Shown: positions 41,469 through 49,082 of the stretch, in pieces
How the letters are laid out: the number at the start of each line of letters is the position of its first letter
How positions within the stretch are numbered: the first letter of the stretch is position 1
NCBI RefSeq assembly: GCF_003148475.1
Contig: NZ_QGGG01000004.1
Location: 186,001 to 250,000, forward strand
Origin: Pseudaminobacter salicylatoxidans
GTDB taxonomy: Bacteria; Pseudomonadota; Alphaproteobacteria; Rhizobiales; Rhizobiaceae
Direction of reading: 5' to 3'
Length of the DNA: 64,000 nt
Translations under genes and position numbers: made by a program
Notes under the pieces: model-generated
What the model was told of the DNA's origin: nothing
Seen by the model: the letters and a program-made list of their open reading frames with translations, nothing else
Databases searched by the model: none

Positions 41469-41512
41469 GGGCATGATACCAGAAAGTGGAAACCACTTTC
41501 GGCATCATGCCC
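41469..41512. repeat. 44-nt palindromic element
   Basis: Two long arms (GGGCATGATACC and GGCATCATGCCC, one mismatch; then GAAAGTGG and CCACTTTC) enclose a 3-nt AAA loop, with one bulged base. It lies 43 nt beyond the pyc locus end. The GCATGAT...GAAAGTGG...CCACTTTC pattern resembles short interspersed palindromes that recur in Hyphomicrobiales genomes. It could also terminate pyc transcription. Confidence 0.7.
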
Positions 41513-41554
41513 GACAGAAGATGGATCGGCCCGGACGTCGATACCGCGTCGGTG

Positions 41555-41971
41555 TTACTCGAATACGACCAGAAGGTCCTTGGCGTCGATCTGGTCGCCG
41601 GCCTTGACCAGCACCTCCGAGATGATGCCGCCGCGCTCGGCATGCAGCGCCGTCTCCATCTTCATCGCCTCGATGGACAGGAGCACGTCGCCTTGCTTGA
41701 CCGTCTGCCCGACCGCGACGGCAAGCGTGGAAACCACGCCCGGCATCGGCGCGCCGACATGCGCGTCGTTGCCCGGCTCGGCCTTGCGGCGCGCGCGGGA
41801 AGCAGATGCGCCATGAATGCGGTCTGGCACCTTCACGCGGCGCGGCTGGCCGTTGAGCTCGAAGAAGACCGTCATCATGCCCTTGTCGTCGGTCTCGCCA
41901 ATGGCCAGACAGCGGATCACCAGCGTCTTGCCCTTTTCGATGTCGACGAAAATCTCGTCCTCCGGCTTCAT
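41555..41971 (-). pseudogene. pyc: Pyruvate carboxylase, biotin-carrier C-terminal part, separated by an in-frame stop
   Basis: A 138-codon frame continuing the pyc reading frame after a TAA. It holds the end of the allosteric/PT region (GMMTVFFELNGQPRRVKVPD) and the biotinyl domain with AMKM, Lys104 being the biotinylation site. It has no domain of its own beyond that. Its first ATG lies one codon after the TAA, with AAGG only one nt upstream, so reinitiation is possible but the ribosome site is poorly placed. If the stop is real, the cell has either a two-polypeptide carboxylase or a dead enzyme; a base-calling error is also possible. Confidence 0.8.
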
Positions 41972-41974
41972 GCC

Positions 41975-44900
41975 TTAGAAATAGACCGGCGTCGGCAGCA
42001 CGCTGACGGGACCATAGGTCTCCTGCGTTGCGGCAAAGTCGGAAAACACCTTCGGATACATCAGCCAGGAGGCGAATTCGAACTCGCTCACCTTGCGGCC
42101 GAGCTTCTCCTCGAGCCCCTTGCGGGATGCGGCGAGATCGGCCGGCTTGAGCAGCGAACCCGGCCGCACGGTGATCGGCTTTTCGCCCTTCAGCGCCTTT
42201 TTCTGCAGGGCGGCGGGCCAGCCGCCGGGCGCCTGACCCAGATCCCCGCGCAGCATGGCGACGACAGATTCCGGGAAGGCGATGTCCTTGTCCGGGTTCT
42301 CGACATCGGTGACCGTCAGGTCCTGGCTCACCATCATCAGCGCCATGTCACCCACCACCTTGGACGACGGCGTGACCTTGACGATGTCGCCGAACATCAG
42401 GTTGACGTCGTGATAGGCCTGCGCCACCTCGTGCCAGCGGGTTTCCAGCCCCAGCGAGCGCGCCTGCTCCTTGAGATTGGTGAACTGGCCGCCCGGCATT
42501 TCGTGCAGATAGACTTCCGACGCCGGCCCCTTGAGGTCGCTTTCGAAGGCCGCATACTGGTTGCGCACTGCCTCCCAGTAGAAGGAGATGCGGCGTATCC
42601 ATTCAGGATCGAGGCCGGGGTCGCGCGGATCCCCCCTGAGCGCCTGGACGATGGAGCCGAGGCAGGGCTGAGACGTGTTGCCGGAAAAGGCGTCCATCGC
42701 CGCATCCACGGCATCCACGCCCGCTTCCGCCGCTGCAAGCACGGTGGCGGCCCCAAGACCGGACGTGTCATGCGTGTGGAAGTGGATCGGCAGATCGGTC
42801 GCCTCGCGCAACGCCTTGAACAGCACGCGCGCTGCCGCCGGCTTCAGCAGCCCGCCCATATCCTTCAGCGAAATGATATGCGCGCCGGCCGCTTCCAGTT
42901 CCCTGGTGAGCCCGACATAGTATTTCAGGTCGTATTTCGACCGGTTGGGATCAAGCATGTCGCCCGTGTAGCAGATCGCCGCTTCACACAGCTTGCCTTC
43001 GGCGAGCACGGCATCCATGGCGACCCGCATGCTCTCGACCCAGTTCAGGCAGTCGAAGACGCGGAACAGGTCGATGCCCCCGGCTGCGGCCTGCTTGACG
43101 AAATGCTGCACCACATTGTCGGGGTAGTTGGTATAGCCGACGCCGTTGGCGCCGCGCAGCAGCATCTGCAGCAGGATATTGGGGGCCGCCTCGCGCACTT
43201 TGGAGAGGCGCTCCCACGGGTCTTCGGTCAGGAAGCGCATGGCGACGTCGAAGGTCGCGCCGCCCCAGCATTCGAGCGACAGAAGCTGCGGCAGGGCGCG
43301 CGCATAGGTGCCCGCGATACGCGCGATGTCGTAGGTGCGCACGCGCGTCGCCAGCAGCGACTGATGCGCGTCGCGCATAGTCGTGTCGGTGAACAGGACC
43401 TGCTTCTGTTCGCGCATCCAGGCCGCGAATTTCTGTGGTCCCAGCGCGTCGAAGCGCTGCTTGGTGCCGTCCGGTATCGACCCGGTGAACCACGGAATGA
43501 CCGGCGCGGCCGCTTCCGGGTCCGGCAGGGCGCGCCCGCGCGTCTCGGGATGCCCGTTGACGGTCACGTCTGCCAGATAGTTGAGCAGCTTGGTGGCGCG
43601 GTCCTGCCGCTTCACCTGCGCAAACAGCTCCGGCGTCGAGTCGATGAACTTCGTCGTGTAGCTGTTCGACTGGAAGCTCGGATGGGTGATGATGGCTTCC
43701 AAAAATGTCAGGTTGGTCGACACGCCGCGAATGCGAAACTCGCGCAAGGCCCGGTGCATGCGCGCAATCGCCTCGGACGGTGTCGGCGCCCAGGCCGTCA
43801 CCTTCTCCAGCAGCGGATCGTAGTAGCGCGTGATCACCGCGCCCGAATAGGCGGTGCCGCCGTCGAGCCGGATGCCGAAGCCGGTCGCGCCGCGATAGGC
43901 GGTGATGCGGCCATAGTCGGGAATGAAATTGTGCTCCGGGTCTTCGGTGGTGATCCGGCATTGCAGGGCATGGCCGTTCAGCCGGATTTCCGACTGGTTC
44001 GGCACGCCGGTTTCGGGTTTGCCGATCGCCAGTCCGTTGAGAATGTGGATCTGCGCCTTGACGATGTCGATGCCTGTCACCTCCTCGGTGACCGTGTGCT
44101 CCACCTGAATGCGCGGATTGACCTCGATGAAGTAGAATTTGCCGCTGTCGGCATCCATCAGGAACTCGACGGTGCCGGCGCCGACATAGTCGGTCGCGCG
44201 CGCGATCTTCAGCGCATGGTCACACAGTTCGCCACGCTGGACGGCATCTAGATAGGGAGCGGGAGCGCGCTCCACGACCTTCTGGTTGCGGCGCTGGATC
44301 GAGCAATCGCGCTCGAACAGATGCACGGCATTGCCATGCGTGTCGCCCAGCACCTGTACCTCGACATGGCGCGCGCGCTCGATCAGCTTTTCGAGATAGA
44401 CCTCGTCCTTGCCGAAAGCGGCCTTGGCCTCTCGCTTGCCTTCCATCACTTCGCGGGCAAGATCGGCTTCCGAGCGGATGACGCGCATGCCGCGTCCACC
44501 ACCACCCCACGATGCCTTGAGCATCAGCGGATAGCCGACATCGGCAGCCAGCTTCTTCACCGCCTCGACATCGTCGGGCAGCGGATCGGTCGCCGGAATG
44601 ACCGGCACGCCGACCTCGACGGCGAGATTGCGCGCGGCCACCTTGTTGCCCAGCCGGCGCATCGTGTCGGGCCTGGGACCGATGAAGGTGATGCCGGCTT
44701 CGGCGCAGGCCTCGGCAAACTCCGGGCTTTCCGCCAACAGCCCGTAGCCCGGATGGATCGCGTCCGCCCCCGACAGCTTCGCCACGCGCAACACTTCCTC
44801 GATCGACAGATAGCTTTCGATCGGACCGAGATCACGGGTCAGATGCGGCCCGCGGCCGACCTGATAGGACTCGTCCGCTTTGAACCGATGCAGCGAATAT

Positions 44901-45013
44901 TTGTCCTCTTCCGCCCAGATCGCCACGGTTTTGAGCCCCAGTTCGTTGGCGGCGCGAAACACGCGGATAGCGATTTCAGAACGGTTGGCGACAAGTATCT
45001 TGCTGATCGGCAC
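41975..45013 (-). pseudogene. pyc: Pyruvate carboxylase, biotin carboxylase and carboxyltransferase part, ending at an in-frame stop
   Basis: Pyruvate carboxylase makes oxaloacetate from pyruvate and bicarbonate. This 1012-residue part has the biotin carboxylase domain (ISKILVANRSEIAIRVF, ATP-grasp GGGGRGM). It also has the carboxyltransferase domain (TTMRDAHQSLLATR, GGATFDVAMRFL, HTHDTSG). It ends ...LPTPVYF then TAA, where rhizobial Pyc has YFYG, so one Tyr codon has become a stop. Reading through gives 1152 residues, the normal family length. The GTG start at 45013 has GGAGGAG upstream; the frame is open beyond it. It is monocistronic. Confidence 0.9.
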
Positions 45014-45147
45014 GTAAATTCTCCTCCAGAACTTCAATGGCGGCGAATGATTAGCGGTTAAATGCTGCAGTGCAACCAAAACCCGCAATTTTTAACCGAT
45101 TTAAATTCCGTAACGTCAAGCAGACCGTTTTTTCGCGGCGCATAAAA

Positions 45148-47615: not shown

Positions 47616-47619
<4 letters not shown>
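46888..47619 (-). CDS. livF: Branched-chain amino acid ABC transporter ATP-binding protein LivF
   Basis: A 243-residue ATPase with Walker A GANGAGKST, signature LSGGEQQMLSIARALM and Walker B LLLDEPSLGLAP. GGGAGG precedes the ATG at 47619. Its start overlaps the livG stop by ATGA. It pairs with LivG to drive LivHM. Confidence 0.95.

Positions 47620-49081
<1,462 letters not shown>

Positions 49082-49082
<1 letters not shown>

Follow-up and report, generated by a model that had tools for sequence, protein, structure and literature searches.

Single-chain pyruvate carboxylases (PYC), as modelled by TIGR01235, carry a biotin carboxylase domain (BC), a carboxyltransferase domain (CT), the allosteric PT domain and the biotin carrier domain (BCCP) in this order and within one uninterrupted frame. 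The rhizobial representative of this type is the enzyme of PDB entry 2qf7, which we take to be from Rhizobium etli. In two-subunit PYCs, such as PaPC of Pseudomonas aeruginosa and MfPC, BC is alone on one chain and CT is joined with BCCP on the other, and the PT region shows <10% identity to single-chain enzymes; these statements, as well as the formation of the PT domain from the BC-CT and CT-BCCP linkers, are taken from the available sections of PMC5059739. A literature search, judged by title, returned no title considered relevant to a PYC with a premature stop, a split gene or translational coupling.

The PYC locus analysed here is located in a window of 64,000 nucleotides (the whole stretch of DNA under analysis, G000:C4:186001-250000) of a draft assembly of 4.84 Mb in 43 contigs (table 1). 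The locus shares with 2qf7 the domain order, the length (1152 codons) and the family scores, and the PYC of an intact relative (G003), an unbroken ORF of 1152 residues, aligns with 2qf7 across residues 2-1151. It differs from 2qf7 in that it encodes no single chain, with a TAA at residue 1013. With PaPC and MfPC it has in common two open frames and a carrier located off the BC chain. In contrast to them, BC and CT are found together in one 1012-residue frame, the break separates the PT strands and BCCP from it, and the whole sequence is of the single-chain type. Judged from its sequence, the locus is an ordinary single-chain PYC gene of rhizobial type.

Table 1. Features of the PYC locus, in positions of the window.
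Feature	Position	Strand	Description or basis
PYC N part, biotin carboxylase and carboxyltransferase	41975..45013	-	1012 residues, GTG start at 45013, TAA end
In-frame TAA at PYC residue 1013	41975..41977	-	Tyr (YFYG) in the relatives examined
PYC C part	41555..41971	-	ATG-led ORF of 138 residues; PT (allosteric) strands and biotin carrier domain
ATG three bases past the TAA, possible but unsupported reinitiation codon	41969..41971	-	Sequence, pairing and residue conservation
GGAGGAG, likely ribosome-binding site of the PYC GTG start	45021..45027	-	Sequence and pairing

The initial annotation had described a PYC split in frame by one TAA, and the minus strand confirms it, reading CCG GTC TAT TTC TAA GGC ATG AAG at the break. 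This 24-base string has a single occurrence in the genome, and the longest single-base run at the site is three. The two halves had also been said to give together the normal length of 1152 residues, with no other disruption of the frame. Both statements hold, since 1012 codons, the stop, one Gly codon and 138 codons add up to 1152, and the match over residues 1-1151 has this TAA as its sole stop. On the opposite strand, a 921-residue open frame is antisense to PYC (window 41486-44251, plus strand); it resembles a shadow ORF such as high-GC genes produce, and an antisense frame, of 646 residues, is also found over the PYC of G003. Elsewhere in the window (47616-49082, minus strand), an ABC transporter ATPase ORF of 488 residues, LivG-like by eye, bears a long Ala/Lys/Pro-rich C-terminal extension with GIGPVNERKLNEHGIYHFDQI near its end.

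The N part scores 1736.4 bits against TIGR01235 (cut-off 1114.45 bits) over model positions 1-1004 of 1143, and the C part continues the same model at 1008-1143, so that the domain order of the single-chain enzyme is recovered and only its uninterrupted frame is missing. The C part also matches PF00364 (6.7e-18) and retains the biotin motif EAMKMET intact. PF02436 spans the stop site, covering residues 834-1033 in the intact relative G003, and its match to the N part breaks off at position 179 of the 201-position profile. The structure of residues 961-1151 of another relative (L009) was predicted from 38 sequences with medium confidence (mean pLDDT 73.8, pTM 0.44, pLDDT <50 at 1000-1011). The last CT helix of the model comprises residues 987-1000, residue 1013 is placed in a short turn, and four PT strands follow at 1020-1063 (the first at 1020-1026) before the carrier. 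The stop is thus predicted to lie in the linker that joins CT, after its last helix, to the first strand of PT. PMC9581989 places the end of the transferase funnel of LlPC at residue 1000 (LlPC numbering). Taken together with the origin of PT from linkers, this suggests that the N chain would stop just past CT, with the PT strands and the carrier beyond the break. The earlier placement of the stop near the junction of the CT/allosteric region with the carrier is thus a fair one, even though the site is inside PF02436.

Relatives were examined at the site of the stop. Among the named genomes found by PYC, those of Mesorhizobium (up to 89% identity over 341 residues) and Pseudaminobacter arsenicus (88%) rank closest. 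The PYC frame is open in the three other genomes of the same genus that were compared (92, 92 and 88% identity). A scan of 394 genomes of the family, with a threshold of E up to 1e-200, gave a PYC match in 363; among the 150 matches listed, which include a few genomes twice, an internal stop is present in one, the window's own genome, and in none of the other 149. Similarly, at 119 loci compared at the site, a set that contains duplicates, the codon is TAC in 101, TAT in 14 and TAA in four, and all four TAA loci are copies of the window's own locus. Residue 1013 is Tyr, as the initial annotation had expected from the YFYG motif of the family, in 80 of 80 named relatives (67 TAC and 13 TAT; best 80 of 593). 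The sequences therefore indicate that the stop is private to the window's genome among those examined, with the species represented by one strain in the comparison. The PYC region is also matched by 38 plasmid records, and a search of viral contigs gave one distant carrier-like match (40%).

This distribution bears directly on the idea that the locus belongs to a long-established lineage of two-subunit PYCs, for which the initial annotation had named relatives with the same stop as the sign of a genuine split enzyme. By that measure the idea fails, as alignment to relatives found the stop in none examined: neither in the three other genomes of the genus, which are all single-chain, nor in the 149 other listed matches of the family. 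Moreover, the enzymes described in the accessible part of PMC5059739 are split between BC and CT, unlike the present one. On the relatives examined, an old split enzyme is rejected, and we give this reading practically no weight.

The initial annotation had left four readings open, and they did not fare equally: a very recent loss and a sequencing error both fit the data, readthrough is without support and reinitiation is possible only in principle. If a suppressor tRNA or some special context let ribosomes read through the TAA, the enzyme would be made at full length, in agreement with the largely intact sequence on both sides of the stop. Against it, the stop is kept in no examined relative, where Tyr prevails (80 of 80; best 80 of 593), and no TTA anticodon was found among the 51 tRNAs read, one of which is of unsettled anticodon, in a set that is incomplete and has no tRNA-Ile. 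ARAGORN read these 51 out of 52 genomic tRNA matches, the short match L319 giving nothing. Neither tRNA-Ile nor tRNA-Ala (TGC) was read from the 52 matches, perhaps as a consequence of unassembled rRNA operons. Readthrough has no support and is regarded as highly improbable.

Within the same tRNA set, the anticodon of a 91-base gene (G000:C8:127035-127125; L317:56-146) was not settled by ARAGORN. By eye its loop holds TCA, as in selenocysteine tRNA, which would read UGA. No selB match above the cut-off was obtained in this genome, and one was obtained in a genome of the same genus (G001).

Translation could in principle restart at the ATG after the TAA, so that a 138-residue PT-carrier chain would join the 1012-residue BC-CT chain in a leaky enzyme of two chains with some activity. 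A chain begun at this ATG, three bases past the stop, would contain the entire carrier and the lysine of its MKM motif; the modelled cut, between the CT helix and the PT strands, may leave each chain with complete domains (pTM 0.44), and in the normal enzyme the carrier moves to a neighbouring subunit, as stated in the sections available of PMC5895798. A cut near a domain junction with an ATG so close makes residual two-chain activity possible. The ribosome-site pairing speaks against it: with the 16S tail it is weak at the ATG (-2.7 kcal/mol), compared with -9.3 kcal/mol for the GTG start. An ATG this close is no more than mildly unusual, as one would follow within two codons in 12 of the 300 possible nonsense changes of the PYC gene, and in one of the 14 possible in codons 1001-1070 when the existing stop is excluded. 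Residue 1015, the putative restart Met, is variable in named relatives (M in 37, L in 31 and I in 12; best 80 of 593), and the split is absent from the listed relatives. Reinitiation is possible in principle, the ATG itself being the only positive sign of it, and a leaky enzyme of this kind is considered unlikely. Still less probable, in our estimation, is a newborn two-polypeptide PYC, in which a nonsense change at the CT-PT junction would have freed a biotin-bearing PT-carrier protein of about 15 kDa that still serves the BC-CT chain, that is, a gene fission at its first step.

The age of the change was approached through the conservation of the two parts. Identity between the window's PYC and that of G003 is 89.9% in the C part and 92.1% in the N part, and two intact relatives compared with each other show the same gradient (94.9 and 97.0%, respectively). 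Columns conserved in at least 90% of the rows, duplicates included, number 84 in the C part, where the window's PYC departs from 3, and 746 in the N part, where it departs from 12; three intact relatives depart from 0-2 and 5-14, respectively. The three departures of the C part are slightly above the 0-2 of the intact relatives and are too few to weigh. The C part is slightly looser, as it also is between relatives, and no clear decay or relaxation is apparent. Both pieces are about as conserved as among intact relatives, and the change is therefore young, or is absent from the living strain.

The latter would be the case if the TAA is a miscalled base of the 43-contig draft and the codon of the living strain encodes Tyr. 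A base error would account for a stop that is unique among the matches examined and surrounded by little decay, in the only PYC gene found in a genome where PEP carboxylase has no match. The change is, though, a plain substitution next to base runs of at most three, and not of the common homopolymer-indel type. The quality of the assembly was examined by comparing 1.25 Mb of the window's genome (26% of it) with 1.17 Mb of G003. Following removal of 43 pairs as not coding-like, 370 G003 ORFs remained paired with the window's genome, of which 10 were flagged as broken, PYC included; in 26 kept pairs the stops were confined to the first 15% and were ascribed to the choice of start. In the reverse direction, 13 of 351 retained pairs were flagged (41 dropped, 18 assigned to start choice). 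The window's genome is thus not unusually broken in this 26% sample, within which single errors may still occur.

We regard most of these flagged breaks as spurious. Of the nine flagged pairs other than PYC, six were compared with Pfam; four had their best family stretch downstream of the break, which is start choice, and two had no match. PYC is the only flagged pair for which a break within a Pfam domain was demonstrated. In a first round with a looser filter, the flagged pairs had been 15 of 175 and 16 of 153. Stops flanked by homology numbered 21 and 26 in the two comparisons, and most such frames other than PYC look by eye like shadow ORFs or upstream extensions. Since nothing else in the sample suggests an error-prone consensus, a real recent allele is placed somewhat ahead of a base error. 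The error remains a serious contender that we hold to be well within reach but short of probable.

The reading that we prefer, with a little over even confidence, is that the locus is an ordinary PYC gene with a nonsense allele of very recent origin, real and probably null. One substitution would recently have turned the codon of Tyr-1013 into TAA; had the parent codon been TAC, which most of the examined relatives carry, this would be a C-to-A transversion on the gene strand. The cell would then make a 1012-residue chain without the PT strands and the biotin carrier. In biotin carboxylases the full reaction is impossible without the carrier. With no carboxyl transfer from BC to CT, the allele would be null for the full reaction. 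For comparison, a Rhizobium etli PYC construct without BC and BCCP was inactive in oxamate-induced oxaloacetate decarboxylation, as far as the available text of PMC5895798 relates. Such a mutant would be viable on complex media, or on substrates that enter the TCA cycle by another route, and would grow poorly in minimal medium with sugars, sugar alcohols or pyruvate.

The gene content of the genome and data from relatives were considered with regard to the tolerance of such a loss. The genome yielded no second PYC or PYC_OADA protein. Genes for isocitrate lyase and PEP carboxykinase are present, together with one match to the biotin/lipoate ligase family. In a Tn-seq survey of Rhizobium leguminosarum (PMC5118466), the two medium columns differ in their score for the pyruvate carboxylase gene, one giving ES and the other NE, and the text describes mutants of this gene as impaired on mannitol and not on TY. 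A null allele of PYC could accordingly persist in rich-medium culture. In the family scan, 31 of the 394 genomes had no PYC match at E 1e-200, as did 20 of the 356 with completeness of 90% or more and contamination of 5% or less; PYC absence thus seems tolerated in some lineages. Eleven of the 20 genomes listed with no match are of 2 Mb or smaller. PYC seems absent in some larger genomes too; for instance, three genomes of genus g11 (G013, G116 and G185) are of 3.5-3.7 Mb and 97-99% complete, with no PYC match at E 1e-200.

Taken as a single nonsense change, the stop is of consequence mainly for the annotation and for the metabolic model of the strain. If the two chains did cooperate, a carrier domain would have been freed by a single mutation. 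If the recent nonsense allele is real, the strain would have lost the only PYC found in a genome with no match to PEP carboxylase, and poor growth on sugars in minimal medium would be expected.
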